Shown here: piece after piece, positions 27,634 to 62,748 of the stretch
Numbering within the stretch: position 1 is the stretch's first letter
Layout: each line of letters opens with the position of its first letter
NCBI GenBank assembly: GCA_017459965.1
Contig: JAFUBW010000014.1
Span: forward strand, 263,174 to 327,173
DNA from: Bacilli bacterium
GTDB lineage: Bacteria; Bacillota_I; Bacilli_A; RF39; UBA660
Direction: 5' to 3'
Length of the DNA stretch: 64,000 nt
Program-made: the position numbers and the translations under genes
The notes under the pieces: model-generated
The model's database searches: none
Told to the model about the DNA's origin: nothing
Seen by the model: the letters and a program-made list of their open reading frames with translations, nothing else

Positions 27634-27872
27634 TAAAAAAAGACAAGTCATCCTTAAAAGGACGAACTTGTCGTGGTACCACCTTTATTCATAGTATTTC
27701 TACTACCTTAAAGTCTTAATGCGACTAACAGCATATCTTACTACTTTTTTCAGATACACAACTTGCAAGCTACCTTCAATTACTCTTCATTAAGAAAGGC
27801 TTTCAGCCAGTGACCTTTCATCTCTAATAATTACTAAGTAATCTACTCCTCTTGGTCTTTGTCTTTCAATAT
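27634..27872 (-). promoter_or_regulatory. T-box riboswitch of valS
   Basis: On the minus strand GGTGGTACCACG (27672-27683) is the T-box core. The terminator stem GACAAGTTCGTCC / GGATGACTTGTC with a U-run is at 27634-27675. Stem I can be drawn with upper stem ATTACTT / GAGTAAT and lower pairing CAAG / CTTG. The specifier loop then reads GAAG-GTA-G, GTA being a Val codon, which fits the gene it controls. Uncharged tRNA-Val should favour readthrough. Confidence 0.9.
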
Positions 27873-28309: not shown

Positions 28310-28804
28310 CTACTTTATCTTTTTAATTTTTATTTCCATTCTATTATGATATCCATCATTTTCATAAAACTTAATAGCATTCTCATTATAAGAGAAAACA
28401 TCTATTCTTATATATTCACAATTTTTAGATTTAAAATATTCTTCCATTTTATTTATAAGTAGTTTGCCTATTCCTTTACTTCTTATATTTTTAGATACAA
28501 CAAGTTCAGTTACTTCACCCATTTTTGGACATTTATAATCCAAATAATCATACTGATCATATTTAACAATACATCCCATTATTAAACCTACTACCTTTTT
28601 ATCTTTAAGTGCTAGATAACATATTCCATCATTATTATTTATTTCTTCTAAATCAAGTATAGCCATCCTATCTCTATATTCTGGATGTAACTGATCAAGT
28701 TCATCTTTATCAATAGATAAAATATATTCTTCAAGTTCTACAAGTAAATCTTTTACATATTCTAGATATTTATCTTCATATTCAATTATATTACACTCTG
28801 TCAT
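28310..28804 (-). CDS. GNAT-family N-acetyltransferase
   Basis: 164 aa. N-terminal segment VKDLLVELEEYI, motif A VVSKNIRSKGIGKLLINKM with the acetyl-CoA loop RSKGIG, and the C-terminal RIDVFSYNENAIKFYENDGY. The acetylated substrate is unknown. Its first codons overlap the end of the ASCH-deaminase gene by 14 bases, so it is co-translated with it. Confidence 0.82.
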   Translation of the reverse strand: MTECNIIEYEDKYLEYVKDLLVELEEYILSIDKDELDQLHPEYRDRMAILDLEEINNNDGICYLALKDKKVVGLIMGCIVKYDQYDYLDYKCPKMGEVTELVVSKNIRSKGIGKLLINKMEEYFKSKNCEYIRIDVFSYNENAIKFYENDGYHNRMEIKIKKIK

Positions 28805-29534
28805 AAGCCCACCAATCAGGTAGTAATTCTTCCAGTTTTACTATTTCTTTAGAATCAATATCTTTTAATATTTCAATATTCTTACTATCTTTAGAAAGTT
28901 GCATCATATATTCTCTACAAGCTCCACAAGGTGAACCAACATTACCTCTTGAATCAACACAAACAAGTTTAATTATTTCATTTTCACCATGTGTAATCAT
29001 ATTAGCTATTGCATTTCTTTCACCACACATACCAAGTGTAGATGCCGTATCAATACATACACCAGTATAAATATTATGGTTTTTAGTTAAAATGGCAGCC
29101 CCTACACCACCTGCAGATATTAAACCAGATACATCTCTTGGATTTCTTACACTCTTTGCCTTTTCCAATAATTCATCCCATACTGTATTTTCACTATATA
29201 AATATTCTATATGTATCGCATATACACCACTTTTTTTAATTTCTTCTTTATAACCATTTATACTGTTTATACTTTTAACAGCTTCATTAAAATCATTAGT
29301 AGAAGATAATGTATATCTAGTTCCCTCTAAAGTTAATAATTCTTCAATAGTATTATAATGATTTACTTCTTTTACTTTTACATAAAATATACCTAAATTA
29401 TTACTATTAAATTCTATAATATCATTTACTTTTAACTTACTAAAGTTTTTATTATTAGTATTTGCCCTTATTTCTACTCTTTTAGTTTTATTTTTGATAG
29501 CAAGGGCTGCTCTATCATTAATATTTAATTTCAT
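28791..29534 (-). CDS. ASCH domain fused to cytidine deaminase
   Basis: 247 aa with two parts. Residues 1-110 form an ASCH domain (AIKNKTKRVEIR; KVNDIIEF; GVYAIHIEYL). Residues 117-247 form a Zn-dependent cytidine deaminase with CGERNAI (Cys170, Glu172) and SPCGACREYM (Cys203, Cys206). The E. coli ASCH protein YqfB hydrolyses N4-acetylcytidine to cytidine, so this fusion could turn a modified cytidine into uridine in two steps (inference). Overlaps the GNAT gene. A 21-codon ORF and a terminator lie before it. Confidence 0.8.
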   Translation of the reverse strand: MKLNINDRAALAIKNKTKRVEIRANTNNKNFSKLKVNDIIEFNSNNLGIFYVKVKEVNHYNTIEELLTLEGTRYTLSSTNDFNEAVKSINSINGYKEEIKKSGVYAIHIEYLYSENTVWDELLEKAKSVRNPRDVSGLISAGGVGAAILTKNHNIYTGVCIDTASTLGMCGERNAIANMITHGENEIIKLVCVDSRGNVGSPCGACREYMMQLSKDSKNIEILKDIDSKEIVKLEELLPDWWAYDRV

Positions 29535-32231: not shown

Positions 32232-33914
32232 CTAAAACTTATTAACTGGATGGATTCCAAGAATACTCATACCATTTGATAATACTTTTTTAGTGGCATT
32301 CAATAAAGCTAATCTTGAATTTTTTATTATCTCATCATCTTCAGATAATATAGATACTTGTTCATAATATCTAGCAAATTTTTGTGATATGCTTTGTAAA
32401 TAGTTAGTAATAACCACCGATTCTTGAGTATTAAATGAATTTGTTATTACATCTGGAAAGTCATATAAACTATTTATCAAAGAGTGTTCTAGTTCTTCTT
32501 TGAATTTATAAATTTGACTATTGTCAAAATTATAGTTTGATTTTTCTAAAATAGAATTAATTCTTACATAATTATATAATAAATATATAGCTGAATTTCC
32601 TTGAAAATCTGTTGCAGTTTCTAAATTAAAATTAACTGTCTTTTTTCTATTTACATTTAACATATTATATTTAATACAAGAAGCTGCTAAGTCAGATACA
32701 AGTTCTTCTGATACACTATTACCTTTTTCCTTAAACACTTCAATTATTTTTTCTTTTGCCTTTTCAATAAATTCTTCTAATAAAACTACTTTACCTTCTC
32801 TAGTTGCCATCTTATCACCATTTAATAACACAAAATCATACGATATTAATTTAGGTGCAGGATATCCAAGTATATCTAATGCAGATGCGATCTGTTGCAT
32901 ATAAACTTCTTGATCCTCTCCCAAAACTATCAAATTATTATCTGAATTTCTCTCTATTTTTGAAATAGTATATGCAATATCTCTCAAAGGATATAAAGAT
33001 GTTTTATCTTCTCTTGTTAAAACTAATACTGGAGATTTAGTTGGTATATTATATCCAGTTAAATCAACATATAATCTTCCATTTTCATCTTCCTTTAACC
33101 TTCCAGCAGTCATTAATTTGTCAAGAATTTCTGAAGTTTTATTTTCAAAAACATAATCAGATTCATGAGTAAAATTATCCCATTTAATATCTAATTTTTT
33201 AAATATATCTTGTTGTCCCTGAACACAAATATCAGTTATTCGCTTAAATTTATCTCTAACTTCTTCATTACCAGATTCTAATTGATATAAATAATTAAAA
33301 ACTTGTTTTTCAATATTCTTGTCTGTTTTTACAAGTTCGTTAATATCAATATATAAGTTTAACATATCCTTAAAAGTAATATTATCTATATTTCCAAGTT
33401 TTTCTACGCCTACTAATAACATAGCAATCTGCTTTCCAATATCATTTATAAAATAATTTGCCTCAACATTATATCCTTCAAATTTATATAATCTAACTAA
33501 AAAATCGCCAATTATACTATTTCTTGATCTTCCTATATGTGGTGAAGCATTAGGATTTATTGATGTATGTTCTATTAATAAATCTTTTCCTTTACCAAAA
33601 CCTTTTGAACCATATTTTTCATTACTTTGAATTTCTTTTAATGTTTCGTTAGCTATAAAATTTTTATTAACAAAAAAGTTTAAATAAGGCCCTACAACAT
33701 TCATTCTTGATATAATATTTTCATTTAATCGGAGCATTTTCAATATCTTCTCCGCCTTATCATGAGGATTATTACATTCTTCAATATTAATAGTAAAACA
33801 AGGTAAAGCAAAATCGCCCATATCTTCTTTTGGTGGTCTAACTATATCAATATTTTTTAAATCTATTCCTGCACTATTTAATTCTTCTATTATGTACTTT
33901 TTAAAATCAAACAT
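32232..33914 (-). CDS. argS: Divergent arginyl-tRNA synthetase at the end of the biosynthetic operon
   Basis: 560 aa from the second of two ATGs at 33912-33914, after GAGGGGAAATG. Class I ArgRS features: N-terminal Add1-like domain with PPKEDMGDFALPCF, catalytic NPNASPHIGRSRNS, GLTREDKTSLYPLRDIAYT-like KTSLYPLRDIAYT, GDKMATREGKVV in place of KMSKS, and a DALR-type helical end. The usual HIGH reads HIGR. It is the last gene of an operon of metabolic enzymes, so it may be a self-protection copy, a supplier of Arg-tRNA for the pathway, or simply the cell's only ArgRS placed here. Confidence 0.85.
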   Translation of the reverse strand: MFDFKKYIIEELNSAGIDLKNIDIVRPPKEDMGDFALPCFTINIEECNNPHDKAEKILKMLRLNENIISRMNVVGPYLNFFVNKNFIANETLKEIQSNEKYGSKGFGKGKDLLIEHTSINPNASPHIGRSRNSIIGDFLVRLYKFEGYNVEANYFINDIGKQIAMLLVGVEKLGNIDNITFKDMLNLYIDINELVKTDKNIEKQVFNYLYQLESGNEEVRDKFKRITDICVQGQQDIFKKLDIKWDNFTHESDYVFENKTSEILDKLMTAGRLKEDENGRLYVDLTGYNIPTKSPVLVLTREDKTSLYPLRDIAYTISKIERNSDNNLIVLGEDQEVYMQQIASALDILGYPAPKLISYDFVLLNGDKMATREGKVVLLEEFIEKAKEKIIEVFKEKGNSVSEELVSDLAASCIKYNMLNVNRKKTVNFNLETATDFQGNSAIYLLYNYVRINSILEKSNYNFDNSQIYKFKEELEHSLINSLYDFPDVITNSFNTQESVVITNYLQSISQKFARYYEQVSILSEDDEIIKNSRLALLNATKKVLSNGMSILGIHPVNKF

Positions 33915-33996
33915 CATTTCCCCTCTTTCTTGGCATATTATTCTATAATAATATATTATTTTTGTCAAGAATTATAATATTTTGCTAATTTCATAA

Positions 33997-36372
33997 TTAT
34001 AAATTATTATTTGGTAATTTATTAATAATTTTCTCAAATGAGCTATCATAAGGAATTGGTAATTTTACATTATCTAAAACTCTAATTATCATATCATCTA
34101 ATTCAATAAACACGCATAATGCTTCTACCAATTCCTCATTTACATCATTATCTAATTTTTTATATTCATTTAGTATAGAATTATACTCATCTTTATTTAG
34201 ACAAGTTTCCATTTTTATAAAGGCCAAATCCCATTCTTTTATTCCAATTTTTGCTCCTCCAGCATCAATTATTGCAGATAATTTAAACAACCCATCATTA
34301 TTACTAACCAATATATTATTTGGATTCAAATCAAACCAAATTAATTGTGGAATTAATTTAGAATCATATTTTTTTATTATTTTTAATTTTTCTTTGGCAA
34401 TCTTTATCATATAATTATAATCTTCTTTTTCTATTTTACCTTCAATTGCATCAGAAAATCTTTTTAATTCATTTTCTAAATATAAACTGAAAGATTCATT
34501 TTCAAAAACTTCATTATCTGTTATCCAACCAAATTTATATTTAACAGGAACACCATGAATTATTTTTAGAACTTTTGCAAGATCTGATGCAATATAATTC
34601 AATTTAAATTTAGCACATTTTCGCAATTTATCAATTGTATTTCCTTCTTTATATTCTGTTAATAAACATGATTTTTCTGTTTCTACTGAATAGGATAATG
34701 CATTTGCTATATATTGTGTGTGTTTATGATTAAAAATCATATTTAAAATATCAAATTTTTTCTTTGCTTGATACATTGTTCCATCATAATATTCTTGATA
34801 AATATATTTTTGATATTTGTTTTCAAGTAAATAAGTTTTACATCTCAATCCTCCAAATAATTCAGTTTTTTGATATTCATCAATGTTAATATTTTGTAAT
34901 TCTTCAACTTTCTTTCTTTTAATTTTGCCAGTACCAGTTGTTGGTAATTCAGATACAATTTTAATATTTCCTATAACATAATCTTTTAAATTATTGTTTA
35001 TGTAATCATATAAATCTTCAATCACATATTTTCTTTTTAAAATTACAAATAAATCAAAGTAATAAAAATTTGCTATTTCATTGTAATTTGTTTTAACATG
35101 TACTCGACTAATTCCAGAAAAATTATATAATTTATTTTCTAAATCACGTAATTGATTATCATCAAAACGCAATGCCTTTAAATCACTAAATCTTCCGGCT
35201 ATGTAATAATAACCATCCTTATCTCTTCTAACAACATCATTTGTATTAAACCAATTATCTTTTTTTACTTGTTCTCTCAATCCAGGTATACCAACATAAT
35301 CCTTAAACACCATAGGTCCTTTAATCCAAAGCAATCCCCAATCACCATTTTCAACCGGATTACCTTCTAAGTCTAAAATTTTACATTCTGTATTGGATAC
35401 AACTTTACCTAAACTTCCGACTTTTCTTTCTGAAGCGCTATAATTAAAATGTGTCAAAGAAGCTGTTTCTGTTAGACCATAACCCTCAGTAATAATGGCC
35501 CCAGTTATTTTCTCAAATTTTTTTATACATTCAATAGGTAACGAATCACCTCCAGAATCACATATTTTTAAATTTGATAGATTTATCAATTCATTTTCAT
35601 AATTATTAATTAAATCTATATACATATAAGGTGAACCTGGAAAAACTGATGGTTTCATTTTTTTATTTATTTCGATAAATAAATTTGAATTCCATTTGTT
35701 CATGATTATTAAACTAGCTTTTGATACAATTGAACTTGTTAAACATGCAAACATTGCATAATTATGCCACAATGGTAATACTGTAATTATTTTAGAATTA
35801 TTGTCTAAATTATATACTTTTCTATATTCTTCTGAAACAAAAGTTATATTTTTATAAGTTAACTCCACACCTTTTGAAAATGAATTACTTGTTCCACTGG
35901 TATAAGACACAACTAATGTATCATTTTCTTTCATATTAGATGGAATAAAATTTAATTGTTTATTATAATTATCAAAATTAATTTTTGATAAATTTATTAC
36001 ATTTAATTTATTTTTCAAAAATGATATTTTTTCTATAGTTCTATCATTTATTATAATATTATTTAATCTATTTTTTTTAATAATATCTTCAAGTTCATCA
36101 TTTTCAACAGTATCACTAATCGATACAACAATTTTATTATTAAGTAAGATTGAATAAAATGCATTTACGAATTCATTGCAATTATCCATTATTATACCTA
36201 TTTTTTTATCTTTTGATATATCTAAGTTATGCAAATAGTTTGAAAATGATATTATTTCTGACATTTTTAATTCTTTTTTATATAATTTTTCATCTACCAT
36301 ATGAGCTTCAACAGAAACTACATATTCTTTATCTTTAATATTATCTACAATATAATTTAATAAATTTTTCAT
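33997..36372 (-). CDS. Adenylation (ANL) domain fused to an APH-type kinase domain
   Basis: 791 aa. Residues 1-495 form an AMP-forming acyl/aminoacyl ligase: core A3 YTSGTSNSFSKG (157-168), EGYGLTETA (A5), GRFSDLKA (A8, 393-400), TTGTGKIKRK (A10, 478-487). Residues 500-790 form an aminoglycoside phosphotransferase/choline-kinase fold: the catalytic loop WFDLNPNNILV with Asp681 and Asn686, and metal Asp703 in AIIDAGGA. No carrier-protein domain is present. One polypeptide would both activate an acid and phosphorylate a product or precursor. Two bases separate it from asnB. Confidence 0.82.
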   Translation of the reverse strand: MKNLLNYIVDNIKDKEYVVSVEAHMVDEKLYKKELKMSEIISFSNYLHNLDISKDKKIGIIMDNCNEFVNAFYSILLNNKIVVSISDTVENDELEDIIKKNRLNNIIINDRTIEKISFLKNKLNVINLSKINFDNYNKQLNFIPSNMKENDTLVVSYTSGTSNSFSKGVELTYKNITFVSEEYRKVYNLDNNSKIITVLPLWHNYAMFACLTSSIVSKASLIIMNKWNSNLFIEINKKMKPSVFPGSPYMYIDLINNYENELINLSNLKICDSGGDSLPIECIKKFEKITGAIITEGYGLTETASLTHFNYSASERKVGSLGKVVSNTECKILDLEGNPVENGDWGLLWIKGPMVFKDYVGIPGLREQVKKDNWFNTNDVVRRDKDGYYYIAGRFSDLKALRFDDNQLRDLENKLYNFSGISRVHVKTNYNEIANFYYFDLFVILKRKYVIEDLYDYINNNLKDYVIGNIKIVSELPTTGTGKIKRKKVEELQNINIDEYQKTELFGGLRCKTYLLENKYQKYIYQEYYDGTMYQAKKKFDILNMIFNHKHTQYIANALSYSVETEKSCLLTEYKEGNTIDKLRKCAKFKLNYIASDLAKVLKIIHGVPVKYKFGWITDNEVFENESFSLYLENELKRFSDAIEGKIEKEDYNYMIKIAKEKLKIIKKYDSKLIPQLIWFDLNPNNILVSNNDGLFKLSAIIDAGGAKIGIKEWDLAFIKMETCLNKDEYNSILNEYKKLDNDVNEELVEALCVFIELDDMIIRVLDNVKLPIPYDSSFEKIINKLPNNNL

Positions 36373-36374
36373 TA

Positions 36375-38123
36375 TTATGCAACCTCCAATTCAAAAACTT
36401 TTTCAAAACGCCAATATACAAGTAACCACCATTGTTCTTGTTCAGTAAAATTGTTAACATCATCTAACACTTCAGATTTTATTAATTTTCTAATTATATT
36501 ACTTTTGCATATTTCATCCCAATTATCATTACATAATTTAGTAATAATTTCATTATATATTTTTGGTGGTTCTGGAAATGGATATTTCTCTCTATTAACA
36601 ATACTATCAGGGAGTTTATCCTTAGCATATTGCCTTACAATATATTTTTCTCTTCCATCCTCTAATTTTATTTTAGAGTTTGATTTGTATGCTAATTCAA
36701 CAATTCTATGATTATCAACAAATGGAACTCTGCTCTCTATACTATTCATCATTGCTATTTTATCTTCTTGAATTAATAAATCATGTAATATAGTTTTCAA
36801 TGACAAATCACCATAAGAATTTATTTCATCGTCTGAAAGAACTAAGTAATTGTCAAGATAATTATTTAAAATATTAGGAACTAAATTTTTTATATCCACA
36901 TTTATTTTATCCTTAAATATCATGTTATCAATATAATAATCGTATATTAATGATTTATGGTTATATTTTTCTTTTAAAAACTGAAAAATTTTCCATGTGA
37001 ACACATAACCTAACCATACTTCATCTGAACCCTGACCACTTACAACCACTGTAAAACCATCATCTTTAGCCGCTTTATAATTAAAATACATTGGAATATA
37101 AACTTTATCAATCAATATTTCCTCAACGCCATAAATTACCTTATCAATAACATCAATATTATACATATCTTCTTTTATTAATATATTATGATTTTTAAAT
37201 CCTTCCTTTTTAGCCAAAATATTTGCATGATTAAGATCAAAATCATTATCAAAATCATAACAAATTGTATAGGTATTTAATTTGGTATTAGAGTAATCAT
37301 TTAATAATTTACATACAATACTACTATCTAATCCTCCAGATAAAAATGCTGCAATTGGTACTTGAGATAATAATTTTTTTCTAACAGAATCAGTAAATTC
37401 TTTTTCAAAATCAGTTACTAGTTTTTTTGAATCATTATATTGATTAGAAAATTTAAAAGAATGATATTCATGATCTTTAAATTTGTCATCTTTGATGATT
37501 ACATAATGACCTGGTTTAATACTATAAATATCTTTAAATAAAGTTTGATGTGGATCCATCCATAACTTACAATTTAATGAAATAAGAACTTGATCAATGT
37601 TAAATTTTCTTGGTACTTTTGAAAACTCTAATATTGATTTTATTTCACTTGCATATAGTAATTCTTCATCACTATTGTAATAATAAAGTGGTTTGATCCC
37701 AAATTTATCACGGACTAAATATAGTTCTTTGGTATTTTTATTGTAAAGTGAAAATGCGTAGCATCCCTCAATTCTATTTAATGTATTATCAAGTCCATAG
37801 CAATCTAACATTTTAATCAATACTTCAGTGTCTCCAATAGTATCAAAAGTATATCCATTATTAACTAATTCCATTTTTAGTTCTAAAAAATTATATATTT
37901 CACCATTAAAAGATAACACTAAATCTTTATAACAAAAAGGTTGTTTTGATTTTTCACTAACATCTTGTATTTTTAATAATACATGTCCACAACCTACATT
38001 ACCGTCTATATAAATACCTTCTCCGTCTGGGCCTCTGTGTTTTATTTTCTTTAGCATTTGTTTTATATCTATTTCGGAAACTTCTTTTTTATTTTTATTA
38101 ATTATTCCAACTATTCCACACAT
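36375..38123 (-). CDS. asnB: Glutamine-hydrolysing asparagine synthetase-like amidotransferase
   Basis: 582 aa. N-terminal Ntn glutaminase: Cys2 nucleophile (MCGIVG), HRGPDGEG, LSFNGEIYNF, and RDKFGIKPLYYY. C-terminal synthetase: AFLSGGLDSSIV pyrophosphate loop, VVSGQGSDEVWLGY, and VPFVDNHRIVE. Converts Asp to Asn, or amidates a pathway acid or lactam precursor as related enzymes do. Its place between SDR and ligase genes suggests a pathway role rather than housekeeping. GGAGGTAAAAA precedes the ATG. Confidence 0.88.
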   Translation of the reverse strand: MCGIVGIINKNKKEVSEIDIKQMLKKIKHRGPDGEGIYIDGNVGCGHVLLKIQDVSEKSKQPFCYKDLVLSFNGEIYNFLELKMELVNNGYTFDTIGDTEVLIKMLDCYGLDNTLNRIEGCYAFSLYNKNTKELYLVRDKFGIKPLYYYNSDEELLYASEIKSILEFSKVPRKFNIDQVLISLNCKLWMDPHQTLFKDIYSIKPGHYVIIKDDKFKDHEYHSFKFSNQYNDSKKLVTDFEKEFTDSVRKKLLSQVPIAAFLSGGLDSSIVCKLLNDYSNTKLNTYTICYDFDNDFDLNHANILAKKEGFKNHNILIKEDMYNIDVIDKVIYGVEEILIDKVYIPMYFNYKAAKDDGFTVVVSGQGSDEVWLGYVFTWKIFQFLKEKYNHKSLIYDYYIDNMIFKDKINVDIKNLVPNILNNYLDNYLVLSDDEINSYGDLSLKTILHDLLIQEDKIAMMNSIESRVPFVDNHRIVELAYKSNSKIKLEDGREKYIVRQYAKDKLPDSIVNREKYPFPEPPKIYNEIITKLCNDNWDEICKSNIIRKLIKSEVLDDVNNFTEQEQWWLLVYWRFEKVFELEVA

Positions 38124-38138
38124 TTTTTACCTCCCATA

Positions 38139-38867
38139 CTATTTCAATAGTATTCCACCATTTATATCAATATTTTCACCATTTATATAATCAGATTCTT
38201 TGCTTATCAAAAAAGATATTAAATTATATATATCTTGTGATTCACACAATCTTTTTCTTGTAGATTTTTCTTTAACTTCATCGATTTCCTTTTTAGTATA
38301 TGATTTTAATGTCAACGGAGTTAGTGTTAAAGATGGGCTTACACAATTAACCCTAATTGAATACTTTTCTAATTCTAGAGCTGAACATTTTGTCAACATA
38401 ACAATAGCAGATGCAGAACAACAATATGCTGACGAATCACTCATGGGCCTAGTTGCTAGTCTTGAGGCAATATTTATAATTGATGGATAATTTGATTTTT
38501 TTAACAAAGAAATTGCATATTTTGTACAAAACGCTTTACCAACCAAATTTGTTCTCACAATTTTATCAAATTCAACATAATCATATTTTTCAATCTTATC
38601 CATATAATCATATGCTGCATTATTTATTAAAACATCAATGTAATTATGTTGATTTCTAATTTTATTAAATGCTTCTATTATTTCTTTTTCTATTGTTATA
38701 TCACATTTAATAAAAATTATATTATCGCTATTTATTTCTTTTTTTACTTTTTTTATTTTTTCAATATTTTTTGACAATATATAAACATAGTCTGTTTCTG
38801 AAAATTTTTCGGACAAATAACGCCCAATTCCAGATGTACCACCAGTAATTACTATAACTCTATTCAT
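38139..38867 (-). CDS. Short-chain dehydrogenase-like protein without the catalytic Lys
   Basis: 242 aa with a normal Rossmann start (VITGGTSGIG) and NNAA in place of NNAG. Ser135 (INIAS) and Tyr148 are present, but the YxxxK motif reads YCCSA, so position 152 is Ala instead of Lys. Either it is an inactive or binding protein, or catalysis works differently. The rest (VNCVSPSLTLTPL, ENIDINGG) is regular. It overlaps the PHP gene by 8 bases and sits 15 bases from asnB. Confidence 0.85.
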   Translation of the reverse strand: MNRVIVITGGTSGIGRYLSEKFSETDYVYILSKNIEKIKKVKKEINSDNIIFIKCDITIEKEIIEAFNKIRNQHNYIDVLINNAAYDYMDKIEKYDYVEFDKIVRTNLVGKAFCTKYAISLLKKSNYPSIINIASRLATRPMSDSSAYCCSASAIVMLTKCSALELEKYSIRVNCVSPSLTLTPLTLKSYTKKEIDEVKEKSTRKRLCESQDIYNLISFLISKESDYINGENIDINGGILLK

Positions 38868-39693
38868 TAAAAAAACTCCTTTTTAATATTTTTTGCTCAT
38901 TTTTACTAATAAATGTGTTACCAAAGCTTATATTATCATCTTCACAGTGCCAATCACTTCCAACAGTTGCAATTAGATTATATTTTTTAGACATTTCAAT
39001 TGAAAATTCTCTTTCACTTGCAGAATCAAACGAATAATATGCTTCTATTCCTTGTATTCCACAATCTTTTAGATATTTTATGTATTTCTCCTTTTCGTCA
39101 TAATTCATATTTAAGCGTTTTGGATGCGCTAAAACTGCTACACCACCAACTGAATTGATTAATTCAAGAATTTCTTCTACAGAGTATTTAGGATATGAAA
39201 CATGATATGTAGAATTATTATTTAAAAACATATCATACGCATCAAATCTTGATTGAACTGCACCAAGTTTTTCTAATAAAATGCATAAATGATTAATTAA
39301 TAGATGTCTTCCTTCTGACATTTTTTTTACATCATCTAACGAAACAAAAATCCCATCATTTTTTACCCTTTCAATACCTTCTAAAATTGCATTTATTCTT
39401 AAAGTTCTTTCCTTTTCTAAAAAAGAATTTAATTGATTTTTATTTTTATAATTATAGCATAGCAAATGAAGATATTTTGAATTTTTAACATCATAATATG
39501 CCTCAAGTTCTACACCAGGAATAGTAACAATATTCTTTCTTTGACATTCCTTTTTAAATGACTCATACCCTAAAATACAATCATGATCTGTTAGTACAGC
39601 ATGTGTTATTCCATTTAAATAAAGTTTATTTACTAGATCTGATGTAGTTAAAGATCCATCAGACCAAGTTGTATGTAAATGCATATCAATCAT
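38860..39693 (-). CDS. PHP-domain phosphoesterase
   Basis: 277 aa. All PHP metal motifs are visible: MHLHTTWSDG, LTDHD, PGVELEAY, HLLCYNY, VLAHPKR and GSDWHCEDD. Relatives (TrpH/YciV) remove phosphate from nucleotides or amino-acid-type phosphates. Next to a kinase domain, it could remove a protective phosphate (inference). Its ATG overlaps the TGA of the aminotransferase gene and its end overlaps the SDR start, so it is tightly coupled to both. Confidence 0.88.
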   Translation of the reverse strand: MIDMHLHTTWSDGSLTTSDLVNKLYLNGITHAVLTDHDCILGYESFKKECQRKNIVTIPGVELEAYYDVKNSKYLHLLCYNYKNKNQLNSFLEKERTLRINAILEGIERVKNDGIFVSLDDVKKMSEGRHLLINHLCILLEKLGAVQSRFDAYDMFLNNNSTYHVSYPKYSVEEILELINSVGGVAVLAHPKRLNMNYDEKEKYIKYLKDCGIQGIEAYYSFDSASEREFSIEMSKKYNLIATVGSDWHCEDDNISFGNTFISKNEQKILKRSFFNE

Positions 39694-40853
39694 AATAATT
39701 CCTCCTTATATTTTATACAAGAATCTACTAGTAAATCCATAGCCTTTTTTATTTTATTATCATCTAGTGTTACACAAATTCTTATTTTATTTCTACCTGT
39801 ATTACTAATATAAAAATCACTTGCTGGTGTAACCAACAATGAATAATTATTCTTTTTATATTTTTCTATTAACCATTCAACATATTTTTCTGTATCAAAT
39901 GGTAATTCCAATATCATCGTTAATCCTCCATGTGGACATATGTACTTTATCTCAGTTTTATTTAACTTTTTTTGAATAATATTAATTCTATTATGATATA
40001 TTTTTTTAGAATTCTCAATTATTTCATCTGCCTTATCCAACATTTTAGAAACAGCAAATTGCTCTACATTTGAAATAGATATTCTACAATCATTTATCAT
40101 TATAATATTACTATTTAATTCGTTATTATTAGAAATAATATAACCTATTCTCGATCCACATAAATTCAATTTTTTAGAAGCAGAATCAACAACAACTACA
40201 TTGTTGTCTAAATAATTCAAAAAAGAAATGTATTTATTATCATAAATCAATCCACTATAAACTTCATCAGATATTATAATTAAATTATGCTTTTTAGATA
40301 CTTCAAGAATTCGCTTTGCAAGCTGCTTAGTTATAATTGCTCCATCTGGATTATTAGGGTTTGCAAAAAGAATTGCTTTAGTTTTATTATTTATATTTTT
40401 TTCAAAAAAATCATTATTTAAATCATTCCAACTTACTGCTCTAATTTTTATATTTAACATGTTACAATACATTTTATAATCTGCAAAAAAAGGTTCTAAT
40501 ATAATTATTTCATCACCACAATCACAAATAGAATATAAAAGTTTAATAATCGCATCTGATGCACCTTGAGTAATAATTATATTGTCTTCATCCAAAGAAA
40601 TATTATTATATAATTTTTTGTAATATCTAGCAACAGATGTTTTTAATTCACATGCACCAGATGGGTCTCCATATTTATTTGTTTTTACATTATATTTGGA
40701 TAATGATTCAAAATATGTAGAATTTGTATCAAAATCTGGTTGTCCCATATTTAATTTGTAAAATTTTATACCATCTTGTTCTCTCCTTTTTATCAAGTCA
40801 TTATATTTTGAAAATATAGATTTCTTCATATTTAGTATTCTCTTCGCCAACAT
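39690..40853 (-). CDS. PLP-dependent aminotransferase, class I/II
   Basis: 387 aa from the ATG at 40851-40853 after AAAGGAGTTGATAATA. Fold type I features: LNMGQPDFDT, NIIITQGASDAI, FANPNNPDGAI, SDEVYSGL, the PLP-lysine segment VDSASKKLNLCGSRIGY, and IRICVT near the end. Resembles aspartate/aromatic aminotransferases. As first gene of the six-gene operon, it probably supplies or consumes an amino/keto acid of the pathway. It lies 36 bases downstream of rel and may share its message. It ends with TGA. Confidence 0.88.
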   Translation of the reverse strand: MLAKRILNMKKSIFSKYNDLIKRREQDGIKFYKLNMGQPDFDTNSTYFESLSKYNVKTNKYGDPSGACELKTSVARYYKKLYNNISLDEDNIIITQGASDAIIKLLYSICDCGDEIIILEPFFADYKMYCNMLNIKIRAVSWNDLNNDFFEKNINNKTKAILFANPNNPDGAIITKQLAKRILEVSKKHNLIIISDEVYSGLIYDNKYISFLNYLDNNVVVVDSASKKLNLCGSRIGYIISNNNELNSNIIMINDCRISISNVEQFAVSKMLDKADEIIENSKKIYHNRINIIQKKLNKTEIKYICPHGGLTMILELPFDTEKYVEWLIEKYKKNNYSLLVTPASDFYISNTGRNKIRICVTLDDNKIKKAMDLLVDSCIKYKEELL

Positions 40854-40889: not shown

Positions 40890-42329
40890 CTATTCCTTAT
40901 TAAATTCTAATATTTTTCTCTTTGCTTTTGTTGTTTGTGCTTTATCTAGCCAATCTTTTCTAGGTCCAAATGATTTTGGATCTGTTATTATTTTTACTAT
41001 ATCTTTATTTTGAAGTACATACTCTACTGGAACATATTCATCATTTACAATAGCAGCTACCATAGTATTTCCTAGTTGTGTATGTATTTTATATGCTAAA
41101 TCTATTGGTGTAGAACCTGCTGGAAGTTCCATTCTATCTCCTTTTGGAGTATATACATATATCTTTTTAGATTTTAATAATTCTTCTTTTACTCTTTCTA
41201 CAAAATCTTCATTATCTACAAACATTTTATCTATTTGCTTTAATGATTTATAAAATTGAAATTCATCATTTAAATCTTTTTGCATTTCATCTCTAGCTTG
41301 TCCTTTATTAATATCCCAATAAGTTGTTAAACCAAATGATGCGATTTTATCCATATCAAATGTTCTTATTTGAGCTTGTACTAATCTTTCATCTGCAAAT
41401 ACTGTTGTATGCAAACTTCTATACATATTACTTTTTGGATTATATATATAATCTTTAAATTTTGAACATAATGGATTATATTTAGAATGTATTATTCCAA
41501 GTGTTTGATAACAATTTGAAATTGTATCAACCATTATTTTAAGTGTCATTAAATCATGTATATCATTCATCCTAAGACCATCTTCTAATTGTTGATATAT
41601 ACCATATATATTTTTTGTTCTTATTTTTATTTCATTAGGTATATTATTATCACTTAATATATTTTTAATTGCATTTAACATTTCCGTTAAACATGGCTTA
41701 CTATCTTCTTCCACTATTTTTAAATTTTCTTTTATTTTTTTATATTTGTCTGGTTTTAAATAACTAAGTGATATATCTTCAAGTTCACTTTTTATTCTAT
41801 ATGCTCCTATATAATTAGCAAGTGGTGCGAAAATATCAAGTGTTTCTATAGAATTTTCTTTTTGTTTAAATGGATCTTTAAATTCTAAAGTTCTCATATT
41901 ATGAAGTCTATCAGCAAGTTTTATTATTACTATTCTTACATCATCCATTATACTTGTTATTATTTTTCTTGTATTAGCATTTACTTGGTCTTGCTTACTT
42001 GAAAAATTTAATTTACTAATTTTAGTAACACCATCAACTAGTTTTGCTACTTCTGGATTAAATTGATTAGATATTTCTTCTTTAGTTGTTTCAGTATCTT
42101 CTAAAGTATCATGTAAAAGTCCAGCACATATAGTATCTTGGTCAGCATGAAGTTCTGCAAGTGTATATGCTACATTAAGTGGATGGATTATATACGGCTC
42201 TCCACTTTGCCTTAATTGTCCATCATGTAAATAGTAAGCATATGAATATGCTTTCTTTACCATAGGAATAGCTTCTGGATTATATTCTTCTAATTTTGTT
42301 ATTAAATCTTCTAGTGATAACTGATTCAT
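40890..42329 (-). CDS. rel: RelA/SpoT-family (p)ppGpp enzyme, short form with altered synthetase site
   Basis: About 479 aa, start at 42327-42329 after GGAGGTGAATATT. The HD hydrolase domain is intact (YIIHPLNVAY, GLLHDTLEDT, KLADRLHNMRT). The synthetase domain follows (RTKNIYGIYQQLED, NPKSNMYRSLHTTVF), but its essential Glu in the (E)xQIRT motif reads Gln (LVQAQIRT). A TGS domain (IYVYTPKGDRMELPAGSTPIDLAY) ends the protein, without the usual C-terminal ACT region. It may therefore be mainly a hydrolase. A structured attenuator leader precedes it. Confidence 0.85.
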   Translation of the reverse strand: MNQLSLEDLITKLEEYNPEAIPMVKKAYSYAYYLHDGQLRQSGEPYIIHPLNVAYTLAELHADQDTICAGLLHDTLEDTETTKEEISNQFNPEVAKLVDGVTKISKLNFSSKQDQVNANTRKIITSIMDDVRIVIIKLADRLHNMRTLEFKDPFKQKENSIETLDIFAPLANYIGAYRIKSELEDISLSYLKPDKYKKIKENLKIVEEDSKPCLTEMLNAIKNILSDNNIPNEIKIRTKNIYGIYQQLEDGLRMNDIHDLMTLKIMVDTISNCYQTLGIIHSKYNPLCSKFKDYIYNPKSNMYRSLHTTVFADERLVQAQIRTFDMDKIASFGLTTYWDINKGQARDEMQKDLNDEFQFYKSLKQIDKMFVDNEDFVERVKEELLKSKKIYVYTPKGDRMELPAGSTPIDLAYKIHTQLGNTMVAAIVNDEYVPVEYVLQNKDIVKIITDPKSFGPRKDWLDKAQTTKAKRKILEFNKE

Positions 42330-42536
42330 AATATTCACCTCCAATAAATCAAAAAACCGGCAGCTGTCCGCAAGTCCGCGGAAGTTACCGGTTTAATCCT
42401 CTATGACAGAAGAAGATATGCATAGTAAAGAAGTATTAATAAATAGTTTTTTAATACCTATGAGACAATTATCAATTTTAGATATTAATATACTTCTTTT
42501 CATACATATCTACCCCTTCTTGAAATAATTTCTCCT
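42330..42536 (-). promoter_or_regulatory. Attenuator-like leader of rel
   Basis: About 200 nt between a promoter and the rel start. It holds a 36-codon ORF (42393-42503, MKRSILISKIDN...), an imperfect 13-bp stem (AGAAGTATATTAATA pairing with TATTAATACTTCT), and a GC-rich terminator at 42354-42394 (AAACCGG...CCGGTTT with inner TCCGC/GCGGA) followed by T-run. The ORF stops at the base of the terminator stem, as in translational attenuators. Confidence 0.6.
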
Positions 42537-42566
42537 ATTTTAGTACTTTTTGTAGGGGTTTGTCAA
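42537..42566 (-). promoter_or_regulatory. Promoter of the rel leader
   Basis: TTGACA (42561-42566) and TAAAAT (42537-42542) are 18 bases apart on the minus strand, between the ABC-F stop and the leader. Confidence 0.7.
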
Positions 42567-42589: not shown

Positions 42590-44101
42590 TTAGTTAACTA
42601 AATCAATTCTATGTAATCCATTTTTATCTAATTCATATACGGTATCTATAACTTCATTTATATATTTTCTATCATGAGAAATACTTATTATACAACCATT
42701 ATAATTTTTAAGTACATCTCTAATAACTGGATTTGAAAGTGGACTCACATTTCTAGTTGGTTCATCTAATATAAGTACATCACATTTGTCTAGTTCTAAT
42801 TTTATTAAAAATAATTTTGCTTTAGATCCATTTGATAAGTCTTTTATTTTTCCAGTCATTTCCTCTTTTGTAAATTTGATATTACCTAAAAACATTCTAG
42901 CATGTGTTATATCTTCTTTTTTACCACTTGGACATATAAAATCTAAAACATTTTCATAGTTATCTAATATATCATCATAGTTTTGTGGCATATAACCTAT
43001 TTTAATATCATCTCTTTTACTTAATTCTTTATAAATTAGTTTTATTAAAGTAGTTTTACCTGTTCCATTTTTACCTATGATACATACATGAGAATTACCC
43101 ATTATATTTAACACAATATTTTTAGATAATGTTTTATTATCTACTGTTAATTTATCTATATTTAAATCTAATATAATTTTATTTCTAGGTATATTTACTT
43201 TTTCAAAATATAAATTAATGGATTCTTCAACATCAGGCACATCAGTTAAAACTACTTTATCTAGTTTTTTCTCTTGTGATTTTAAAGAATGCATTTTCTT
43301 TTTTAAAAGTCTTGCACCATGTGGATCCTTTCTTGAAATAGATGCTTGTTGATTTTCAACTTTTTGTAACACTTTATTTAACTTTTCTTCTTGTATTTTA
43401 TATTCTCTTTTTTCATTATTAGCGATTTTAGTTTGTTTATCGATTAATCTTAATCTATCATTTATATAAGTATCATAGTCTATTTTTAAAAGTGTATATT
43501 TACATTCTGATTTTTTCTTTATTTGTTCAATATGAAGAATCATATTTGCAGTTTTAGATAAAAGTGTTTCATCATGTGATACATATATAATTGGTTTTGG
43601 AGTACTTTTAATAAATTCTTCTAACCACTGTAAAGTTTCGATATCTAAATCATTTGTTGGTTCATCTAAAAATAATATATCATTTCCCTCTAATAATAAT
43701 TTTAATATACTTATTTTAACTTTTTCTCCACCTGACAATATATTTATTTTTTGATTTAATATTTCATCAGATATATTAATTATTTTTAAATATTTATAAA
43801 ATTCATTTATTTTGTAATAATAATCATTATTATCTTTAAATAAATAATCAAATACTTTTAATTTTAATTCATCATCTGTAAGTGATTGTTTTAAATAACC
43901 TATTTTATTTTCTTTTAAATTAATAGTACCTTTAATATCTGCATAATCACATATTCCAAGTATACATTTTAATAAGGTAGATTTACCATTACCTTCTTCA
44001 CCAATAATGGCTAGTTTATCATTTTTATTTAATATTAATGATAAATCTTTAATTATATATCTATTATTAATTTTAATAGTTAAATTGTTTATTTCTAACA
44101 T
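42590..44101 (-). CDS. ABC-F ATPase, ribosome-protection type
   Basis: 503 aa from the ATG at 44099-44101 after AAAGGAGGCATAACT; the longer frame begins in the attenuator hairpin. It has two ATPase domains without membrane segments: Walker A IGEEGNGKST and IGKNGTGKTT, signatures LSGGEKVKIS and LSNGSKAKLF, Walker B LFLDEPTNDLD and LILDEPTRNVSPLSNPVIR. The linker (KKMHSLKSQEKKLDK) is of ABC-F type. The DEPTRNxSPLSxPVIR form recalls antibiotic-resistance ABC-F proteins that free ribosomes from lincosamide, pleuromutilin or similar drugs. Regulated by a leader peptide and hairpins. Confidence 0.82.
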   Translation of the reverse strand: MLEINNLTIKINNRYIIKDLSLILNKNDKLAIIGEEGNGKSTLLKCILGICDYADIKGTINLKENKIGYLKQSLTDDELKLKVFDYLFKDNNDYYYKINEFYKYLKIINISDEILNQKINILSGGEKVKISILKLLLEGNDILFLDEPTNDLDIETLQWLEEFIKSTPKPIIYVSHDETLLSKTANMILHIEQIKKKSECKYTLLKIDYDTYINDRLRLIDKQTKIANNEKREYKIQEEKLNKVLQKVENQQASISRKDPHGARLLKKKMHSLKSQEKKLDKVVLTDVPDVEESINLYFEKVNIPRNKIILDLNIDKLTVDNKTLSKNIVLNIMGNSHVCIIGKNGTGKTTLIKLIYKELSKRDDIKIGYMPQNYDDILDNYENVLDFICPSGKKEDITHARMFLGNIKFTKEEMTGKIKDLSNGSKAKLFLIKLELDKCDVLILDEPTRNVSPLSNPVIRDVLKNYNGCIISISHDRKYINEVIDTVYELDKNGLHRIDLVN

Positions 44102-44145
44102 AGTTATGCCTCCTTTTTTCGGCATAATAAAAGTTTATGCCAAAC
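44102..44145 (-). promoter_or_regulatory. Mutually exclusive hairpins controlling the ABC-F ribosome site
   Basis: On the minus-strand RNA, GGCATAA (44135-44141), TTATGCC (44121-44127) and a second GGCATAA (44104-44110) lie in order. The middle segment can pair with either. The last one overlaps the GGAGG ribosome site of the ABC-F gene, so pairing 2-3 hides it and pairing 1-2 frees it. Confidence 0.65.
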
Positions 44146-44240: not shown

Positions 44241-44441
44241 TTACTTGTAGATTTGTAATTCGACCATTCGCGCTTATCTACCGTGAAACAGTTTAACTGT
44301 TAGGTTAGTAATGAATTGAACCTTAGAATCTCTTCATGAATGGCAAAATATCACAGTAATTATTTTGTGGTAGTTTTTGCTGTTTGTGAAAGGAGGTTCT
44401 TTTTTGTTTACCACATTAATAAAATAAAAGGAGAAGATATT
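44241..44441 (+). promoter_or_regulatory. Long 5' leader of the ABC exporter gene
   Basis: About 190 nt. An ATG at 44340 opens a frame (MAKYHSNYFVVVFAV...) continuous with the exporter frame but without a ribosome site. An internal AAAGGAGG (44390-44397) stands before a TTG-started mini-ORF (MFTTLIK). AACAGT/ACTGTT and CACAG/CTGTTTGTG dyads are present. A regulatory leader is likely, but its mechanism is unclear. Confidence 0.4.
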
Positions 44442-46130
44442 ATGAAATTATTTAAAGAAGTTATAAAAGAAAACAAATTTATTATAATATTTTATGTATT
44501 TATAGGTATTGTAATAAACTTTATAGATTTATATAGTGTAACTTATTATCAAAAGATTCTAGATGCTTTCCAATATAAAACATTAACATTTACTCCACTT
44601 ATAATATATGGAATACTTTTAATAACATCCACTATACTTGGTTATATTGAAAACTATCCAGAGCAAAAAGTAAAACATGGATTATATTTTGATTTTAAAC
44701 TTCAAGCTTTAAAGAAAATGAAAACTATTGATTACTTAGAATATCAAAAAATAGGAACTGGAATACTTACTCAAAAAGTTGAAGATGGATCATCTGCATC
44801 AAGAGATATTTTAGTAGACTTTTGGCTTAAAATATTTAGATGGTTATTACCTACTGCTATATTTAGTTTATTCTTTATTTATAATGTTAATAAAAAGTTT
44901 GTATTATTTGTATTTGGTGGATATATAATAGTTATAATTGTATCTAATATAATACTTAAAAGATTATATAAACTAAAAGAAAAAATATTAACTAATCAAG
45001 AATATCTAAATAAGCATTTAGTTAGAGGTTTTATGGAACTTGTTGTATTTAGAACTAATAAAAAATATGATACAGAAATAAAGGTAACTAAAAATGCGAT
45101 AAAAAATGTTGTTAATGAAAGAGTTAAAATAAAATTAGTACATGAAATGTTCTTTACTATATTTGCATTTTTAGTAGATATACTGAAGATTGCAATTCTA
45201 TTTTATGCAGTATTTAATCTTGATGTATCAGTTGGAGGGGTTGTTACTGTTATTGCTCTTCTTTATAAAGCATATGAACCAATCGCAATATTCAATGTAG
45301 AATACACTTCTTATAAATTAAATAAAATAACTGTTAATAAATACATAGAATTTTTAGATTCAATTGATGATCAAAATCTTGAAAGCGGAAAAATAATAAA
45401 AAATGTAGATGGTAACATTGAATTTAAAAATGTTTCATTTACTTATAAAAATATAAATAAAAATGTAATAAATGATTTATCATTTAAAATTAATAAAAAT
45501 ACTAAAGTAGCATTAGTTGGTGAATCAGGATCCGGTAAATCTACTATTTTAAAACTATTAATGGGTTTAATTAAAAAAGATGACGGGCAAATATTAATAG
45601 ATGATAATGACCTTTCTTTAATTAATCTAAATTCATTTTATGATCATGTTACATATGTATCACAAGAAGCTCCTATATTTGATGGAACATTAAAAGAAAA
45701 CTTAGTATTTGATAAAAAAATAGATGATGAAAAAATAATAGATGTATTAAAGTTAGTTTGTTTAGATGAATTTTATGACAAATTAAAAGATGGTCTTTAT
45801 ACTGAACTAGGTGAAAAAGGTATAAGAATGTCTGGTGGTGAAAGACAAAGAGTCGCACTTGCTAGATTATTCTTTGATGAATCTAAAATAATAATATTAG
45901 ATGAAGCAACTTCTGCGATGGACAATATAACTGAAAAAGAAGTAATGAACAATATAGTTAAAAGATTAAATAATAAAACTATCATAATAATTGCTCACAG
46001 ACTTGAAACTATTAAAGATGTAGATGAAATATATGTACTTGATAAAGGAATAATAGTTGAAAAAGGATCTTATAAAGAATTACTTAATAAAAATGGTTAT
46101 TTTACAAAACTATATAAATCTGCAAAATAA
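44442..46130 (+). CDS. ABC exporter (type IV fold), permease fused to ATPase
   Basis: 562 aa from the ATG at 44442, after AAAAGGAGAAGATATT; the in-frame upstream ATG lacks a site. Six helices, then ATPase: Walker A GESGSGKST, Q-loop VSQEAPIFDGTLKENL, signature MSGGERQRVALARLF, Walker B IIILDEATSAMD, H-loop IAHRLETIKDVDEI. A half-transporter that must form a dimer. Its divergence from an ABC-F resistance-type gene suggests drug or peptide efflux. Confidence 0.88.
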   Translation: MKLFKEVIKENKFIIIFYVFIGIVINFIDLYSVTYYQKILDAFQYKTLTFTPLIIYGILLITSTILGYIENYPEQKVKHGLYFDFKLQALKKMKTIDYLEYQKIGTGILTQKVEDGSSASRDILVDFWLKIFRWLLPTAIFSLFFIYNVNKKFVLFVFGGYIIVIIVSNIILKRLYKLKEKILTNQEYLNKHLVRGFMELVVFRTNKKYDTEIKVTKNAIKNVVNERVKIKLVHEMFFTIFAFLVDILKIAILFYAVFNLDVSVGGVVTVIALLYKAYEPIAIFNVEYTSYKLNKITVNKYIEFLDSIDDQNLESGKIIKNVDGNIEFKNVSFTYKNINKNVINDLSFKINKNTKVALVGESGSGKSTILKLLMGLIKKDDGQILIDDNDLSLINLNSFYDHVTYVSQEAPIFDGTLKENLVFDKKIDDEKIIDVLKLVCLDEFYDKLKDGLYTELGEKGIRMSGGERQRVALARLFFDESKIIILDEATSAMDNITEKEVMNNIVKRLNNKTIIIIAHRLETIKDVDEIYVLDKGIIVEKGSYKELLNKNGYFTKLYKSAK

Positions 46131-62507: not shown

Positions 62508-62748
62508 TAAAAAACAGTTATCTTCCCAAAAGGGACGAATAACTGTTAAATCCGTGGTACCACCCAAATTATCACTTTCGTGATCACTCTATACATAACG
62601 CAGTATTAGACGCATTTCCCTACTTAGTTTCAAGAAATGAACTCCGTGGTGTTCTTTCATATTACTATTAATATCCATTCTCATCATTTAGGACTCTCTG
62701 TTAAAAAATCATAATATTACTTTTCCACATCAAAGTTTTTACTAGAAA
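62508..62748 (-). promoter_or_regulatory. T-box riboswitch of aspS-gatCAB, specifier reads Asn (AAC)
   Basis: On the minus strand, GGTGGTACCACGG (62552-62564) and the terminator AACAGTTATTCGTCCC / GGGAAGATAACTGTT with U-run (62508-62548). Stem I: lower pair GTGG / CCAC, upper pair TATTA / TAGTA, AGTA S-turn on the 5' side. The 3' side of the loop reads GAAAG-AAC-A just before CCAC, which puts AAC (Asn) at the specifier position; GAA (Glu) overlaps it as GAAC (62651-62654). Confidence 0.88.

Follow-up and report, generated by a model that had tools for sequence, protein, structure and literature searches.

Why should a bacterium with a small genome of 1.06 Mb carry two genes for arginyl-tRNA synthetase (ArgRS), and why should one of them stand at the end of an operon that is headed by a RelA/SpoT homolog (RSH) and that holds five enzymes of small-molecule type in between? 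The question is raised by a 64,000-nucleotide stretch of DNA from a Bacilli bacterium (GTDB lineage RF39; UBA660; contig JAFUBW010000014.1, positions 263,174 to 327,173), which is called the window here. The window has about 24% GC and comes from a family of which about 150 genera have been sampled. The explanation that we favor, with a probability of about 0.5, is that we are dealing with a small gene cluster for the biosynthesis of an ArgRS inhibitor, framed by two genes that would protect the producer, the second ArgRS (ArgRS2) and the RSH. A divergent extra aminoacyl-tRNA synthetase (aaRS) in a small-molecule cluster is an established form of self-resistance, and by this precedent the window operon would make an inhibitor of ArgRS to which ArgRS2 is insensitive.

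Organization of the operon and the five-enzyme block

The transcription unit lies on the minus strand and consists, in order, of a leader open reading frame (ORF), a hairpin, the RSH, an aminotransferase, a PHP-family phosphoesterase, a short-chain dehydrogenase/reductase (SDR), an AsnB-type amidotransferase, a fusion of an adenylation domain with an APH-like domain, and ArgRS2. From the RSH to the end of the ArgRS gene, the sole terminator-like site on the coding strand is a weak one within the aminotransferase gene (39839-39821). A sequence-only reading of this DNA had proposed a six-gene operon that began with the aminotransferase; all six minus-strand ORFs, with their order, overlaps and gaps, were recovered, but the first gene of the operon is the RSH, which precedes them and whose end was read from the sequence at 6 nt 5′ of the first of those ORFs. 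Because the RSH gene had been left out, the RSH-to-aaRS frame that recurs in related genomes was missed.

The five enzymes and ArgRS2 are contiguous or overlap on one strand. The block begins with a pyridoxal phosphate (PLP)-dependent aminotransferase of fold type I, class I/II (39690..40853; PRK07568-like, below cut-off), and continues with the PHP enzyme (38860..39693; closest NCBIfam models 3′,5′-nucleoside bisphosphate phosphatase and RNase RNM, both below cut-off) and the SDR (38139..38867). These are followed by the glutamine-dependent AsnB-type enzyme, with GATase and Asn_synthase domains and an MCGIVG start (36375..38123), and by an ANL-superfamily adenylate-forming enzyme (AMP-binding, 170.8 bits) with a domain similar to APH-type kinases fused to its C terminus (33997..36372). 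Pfam and NCBIfam bear out the families named in the sequence-only reading, apart from the kinase half of the fusion, which scored 19.8 bits against the Pfam APH model PF01636 and stayed below its cut-off of 23.2. This half aligns with real APH enzymes at the catalytic loop only. In an AlphaFold model of the fusion the N-terminal half was usable and matches ANL enzymes (acyl/aryl-CoA ligases, luciferase fold), and the C-terminal half was of low confidence and gave no usable model; its identity as an APH-type kinase is weakly supported.

In terms of function, the set is of a non-housekeeping, small-molecule type, as had been suggested from the sequence, and its operon includes the genome's only AsnB and a second ArgRS. 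The families point to a biosynthetic role, and the operon probably makes a small molecule. Ordinary amino-acid or cofactor metabolism is an alternative that we consider improbable. In that case AsnB would make asparagine, the rest would form a phosphorylated amino-acid pathway, and the operon would be a starvation-response unit of alarmone hydrolase, biosynthesis and synthetase. AsnB is the only Asn_synthase protein of the genome and scores 417.5 bits against TIGR01536 (cut-off 267.1), a model that also takes in AsnB-like enzymes of other function, and an RSH under leader-peptide attenuation would suit a response to starvation. However, the set matches no standard pathway that we know of; the PHP enzyme, the SDR and the aminotransferase missed every equivalog cut-off in NCBIfam; and ArgRS2 is absent from the genus relatives searched, which, where included, also had no match to the fusion or to AsnB.

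For a cluster that makes an ArgRS inhibitor, a workable, if speculative, chemistry can be drawn from the five enzymes. The aminotransferase and the SDR would set the functional groups of an amino-acid-like acid, giving an amino-acid analog, the APH-like domain would put on a phosphate that the PHP enzyme would take off, AsnB would form an amide, and the ANL domain would activate the carboxylate.

Searches for the block elsewhere were negative. The fusion gave generic AMP-binding matches and nothing beyond in 145 family genomes, none of 288 order genomes had a true match to the C-terminal half, and no close relative of AsnB was found in 395 class genomes. One match to the APH half, in G089, was a chance match to a D-Ala-D-Ala-ligase-like protein. 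Two scans of 84,980 GTDB species genomes with fusion peptide patterns and the catalytic-loop motif, which detect close relatives only, found no relative, and their single match (L119) was unrelated. The plasmid and phage searches brought up acyl-CoA ligases and AsnB proteins of generic kinds only. The six-gene neighborhood itself, whose conservation in other species the sequence-only reading had proposed as a check, was found neither in the genus, family, order and class samples nor in these species scans, with the same reach.

The second ArgRS

ArgRS2 (32232..33917, minus strand; Pfam/NCBIfam) carries HIGR and KMATREG signatures. The genome has this operon copy and a housekeeping copy on contig C9, and the two are 30% identical. 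A genus relative has a single ArgRS, to which the C9 enzyme is 70% identical; ArgRS2 was found in none of seven other genus genomes (0/7), which have the C9 type only. Among 386 family genomes searched, the ArgRS2 type occurs in 22 others at 47-69% identity; about 16 of these gave no other ArgRS, and 6 have a second, different ArgRS. HIGR is common to the ArgRS2 members, and the C9 type has HIGH. Because about 16 genomes gave no ArgRS but this type, ArgRS2 presumably functions as an ArgRS, with an active site that differs (HIGR). In the cluster proposed here it would be the insensitive copy of the inhibitor's target, and we lean slightly towards ArgRS2 as a resistant, immunity copy.

In one other genome (G111), ArgRS2 lies 20 nt behind an RSH of the same type, with none of the five enzymes between them. 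The five enzymes thus seem to have been inserted between RSH and ArgRS2, or else G111 lost them. This arrangement, together with the genomes in which ArgRS2 is the only ArgRS found, speaks against the earlier view of ArgRS as an intrinsic member of the pathway. It also favors a reading in which the five enzymes make a small molecule and ArgRS2 and RSH are unrelated neighbors, the block having been inserted between an RSH and a horizontally acquired second ArgRS that were already adjacent. A promoter-like site (TTGACA-17-TAGAAT; 33940..33968, minus strand; 11/12 matches in a consensus scan) stands before the likely ArgRS2 start, and ArgRS2 may have a promoter of its own in addition to that of the operon; the TTG codon at 33968 falls within this site, so that translation is likely to start at the ATG near 33917. 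On the other side, both ArgRS genes are kept in the window genome, and the succession of RSH, biosynthetic genes and extra aaRS is seen again with different, unrelated enzyme sets and with aaRS of other types. On balance, chance adjacency of this kind seems rather unlikely.

ArgRS2 might also serve the pathway itself, by supplying Arg-tRNA or an activated arginine-like building block. AcmD of ascamycin biosynthesis does both jobs, giving resistance and feeding AcmF (PMC12945691), and the ArgRS in the operon is complete. However, family scans of the operon found no tRNA-dependent transferase (CDPS, FemXAB, GNAT, LanB-like or truncated aaRS), and G111 has the RSH-ArgRS2 pair without any pathway. 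We give a supply role little credence.

The short RSH

The first gene after the hairpin encodes a short RSH (40890..42329, minus strand; the frame is open to 42344 and the likely start is the ATG at 42329). By Pfam and NCBIfam it consists of an HD domain, an inactive-looking synthetase domain and a TGS domain, without ACT. In the aligned short RSH copies the HDxxED hydrolase motif is kept (E in 81/81, D in 80/81), and the catalytic Glu of the synthetase domain (EVQIRT) is replaced by Gln in 81/81, a position that was checked against solved Rel structures. From the intact hydrolase motif and the substituted Glu, the short RSH is predicted to be a (p)ppGpp hydrolase without synthetase activity. 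The long RSH of the genus (L112, L113, L115, L116) has the reverse pattern, with the hydrolase motif lost (HDVIHK) and the synthetase Glu kept, and is predicted to be a synthetase only. This lineage seems to use separate proteins to make and to hydrolyze the alarmone. In those genus genomes that have no short RSH, the matches to its HD region were all weaker. In the family, a short RSH besides the long RSH was found at about 110 loci in about 108 of the 386 genomes, among the matches listed that have a short open frame.

Inhibition of an aaRS leads to more uncharged tRNA and in turn to more (p)ppGpp, the signal of the stringent response. If the operon makes an ArgRS inhibitor, the hydrolase-only RSH would remove the (p)ppGpp that the RelA-like RSH would make when tRNA-Arg is uncharged. 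It would in this way blunt the stringent response, which would account for its position in the operon. That the RSH is part of the immunity is a plausible suggestion, for which we put the odds a little below even.

Leader ORF and hairpin

A promoter-like site (TTGACA-18-TAAAAT; 42537..42566, minus strand; 11/12 matches in a consensus scan) lies 5′ of a translated leader ORF of 36 aa, MKRSILISKIDNCLIGIKKLFINTSLLCISSSVIED (42393..42503, minus strand). Between this ORF and the ribosome-binding site of the RSH there is a hairpin of terminator-like form (about 42394-42352) with a U run behind it (42345..42394 as a whole, minus strand; fold -22.3 kcal/mol, z -4.12). The region upstream of the RSH had no match in Rfam. 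A leader ORF, hairpin and U run before the RSH are probably the layout of an attenuator, one that would turn up all genes of the unit in response to disturbed translation.

The layout recurs. A hairpin and U run precede the RSH at 46/80 loci, compared with 51/266 control gene starts, and leader ORFs of similar length and distance are present at 59 related RSH loci, with 6.0% Cys against a background of 1.2%. In L120-L200 the leader ORFs 5′ of the short RSH are variable, Cys-rich and 20-45 codons long, and are followed by a hairpin and U run. The leaders were rejected as Arg-specific attenuators: Arg makes up 3.1% of their residues against 3.2%, Cys alone being enriched, and a sensor of tRNA-Arg is for this reason unsupported.

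RSH-led operons across the family

Eighty-two short-RSH loci were read, with Pfam assignments for selected downstream genes. The short RSH nearly always heads its run of same-strand genes, and the downstream genes vary between genomes. A full-length aaRS of one of several types was found at 19/82 of the RSH loci examined, often with radical SAM, YcaO, PLP or MccF-like genes. The RSH run includes an ArgRS in the window and L085, a MetRS in L141, L142, L147 and L160 (and in L158 after a 257-nt gap), a TyrRS in L122 and L127, each with a second TyrRS in tandem, and a Trp-type aaRS in L137, L148 and L169. Single loci have a Thr/Pro-type aaRS (L138), an AsxRS-type enzyme with an S51 peptidase (L161), a LysRS-I (L180) and a CysRS (L191), and Glu/Gln-type enzymes occur in L197 and L198. 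Blocks that end in another aaRS were seen with TyrRS (L122, L127), MetRS (L142, L141), LysRS-I (L180), the Thr/Pro type (L138) and AsxRS (L161). RSH and aaRS without a block between them, as in G111, were seen in L147, L160, L137, L197 and L198. The biosynthetic blocks behind the short RSH of L122 and L127 are unrelated to each other, and the TyrRS of the two are 70% identical.

Other genes of small-molecule type follow the RSH. By Pfam, YcaO is found at L120, L131 and L156, and radical SAM at L122, L130, L132, L133, L136, L138, L161, L163 and L180; PLP decarboxylases, a carbamoyltransferase and a glutamine-synthetase-like ligase also occur downstream. Class II aaRS paralogs of 341-386 aa (Pfam) are present at L145, L157, L167, L175 and L180. 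At these five loci the class II aaRS-like proteins stand with methyltransferases, amidohydrolases, and MccF-like S66 or S51 peptidases. The five are candidates for further aaRS-inhibitor clusters.

Run counts were compared with a control of 376 genes in 20 random 20-kb stretches from the same family. There were 20/320 aaRS genes in RSH runs and 9/376 in the control (Fisher p = 0.009). Radical SAM genes (13 of 320 against 2 of 376, p = 0.001) and MccF-family S66 genes (8 of 320 against 0 of 376, p = 0.002) were also more frequent, although these two counts are favored because the seed proteins were partly taken from the test loci. In an independent Pfam count, Radical_SAM was found in 9/140 genes at positions 1-3 and in at most 2/140 other genes.

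Besides this choice of seeds, several points weigh against an inhibitor cluster with two immunity genes. The aaRS enrichment is moderate, only 2.7-fold. The aaRS beside the RSH is not always a duplicate: the MetRS is an extra copy besides the housekeeping MetRS in G089, G028 and probably G716, and it is the only MetRS found in G148 and G035. The TrpRS type, tried as a further duplicated aaRS, was rejected as such, being single-copy in most genomes tested. Many RSH-led loci contain ordinary genes, such as the glycolytic genes of L195, and the short RSH may serve the cell as its general (p)ppGpp hydrolase. Horizontal transfer of an ordinary ArgRS could account for ArgRS2, because it is the sole ArgRS in many relatives. 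The operon has no exporter, and ArgRS2 may be transcribed from its own promoter. Finally, the five-enzyme block was a singleton in all searches, so that conservation of the pathway cannot be shown.

Set against these points, the recurrence of the RSH and aaRS frame with different contents suggests, still more tentatively than the immunity role of the RSH, a family-wide arrangement. In it, immunity would come from a reusable frame of a hydrolase-only RSH and a swapped-in resistant aaRS, which is controlled by leader-peptide attenuation and takes up unrelated biosynthetic cassettes. The inhibitor made by each cassette would target the partner aaRS, the RSH would disarm the stringent response, and the window would be the ArgRS case. 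Inhibitors of aaRS are valued antibiotic leads. Should the frame prove real, one could read the target of each compound from the aaRS gene in its RSH-led operon, and the loci would amount to a target-labeled list of small clusters that can be cloned, from gut bacteria that have been little studied. Self-protection by an alarmone hydrolase, if true, would be a new kind of immunity.

Neighboring genes

Immediately 5′ of the RSH leader lies a gene for an ABC-F ATPase (42590-44125, minus strand). Divergent to it and outside the operon is an ABC exporter (44340-46130, plus strand), which could supply the missing export step. T-box leaders are located at 27655-27868 and 62528-62742 (minus strand), the first directly 5′ of a ValRS gene (25074-27620). 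A protein encoded at 28791-29534 (minus strand) combines an ASCH domain with a cytidine-deaminase-like domain. Contamination is unlikely, since the long RSH is on the same contig as the window, and this contig is at least 330 kb long.

Comparison with known systems

Duplicate aaRS genes act in self-resistance in the ascamycin cluster (AcmD; PMC12945691), in obafluorin producers (ObaO; PMC10619133) and in TM84/agrocin producers (AgnB2; PMC7916415). The window operon resembles these clusters in having small-molecule genes beside an extra, divergent aaRS of one specificity. It differs from them in that the aaRS is an ArgRS, the enzyme set is another one, and a hydrolase-only RSH leads the operon. 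A natural cluster with ArgRS self-resistance is not described in the open-licence literature searched.

In microcin C producers the peptidases MccF (S66) and MccG (S51) confer immunity (PMC7916415, PMC9239234). S66 or S51 peptidases are present in the RSH-led operons L156, L157, L163, L167 and L175, and in L161 and L180, and the target class, aaRS, is shared with the microcin C-type systems. The window operon itself differs in having no MccA/MccB, S66 or S51 gene: a family scan gave no match to an MccB-type ThiF protein, and a precursor peptide was sought no further than the leader ORF.

With regard to the enzymes, the Lva genes of levulinate catabolism bring together an acyl-CoA synthetase, an APH-type kinase and an SDR that act on a hydroxy-acid. 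They are separate proteins, however, and their pathway is catabolic and has no AsnB, PHP enzyme, aminotransferase or ArgRS. The short RSH, in turn, shares an intact HDxxED hydrolase domain with SpoT/Rel and with the small alarmone hydrolases (SAH, MESH1). It differs in having a full-length, catalytically substituted synthetase domain and TGS without ACT, and it heads operons with variable biosynthetic and aaRS genes.

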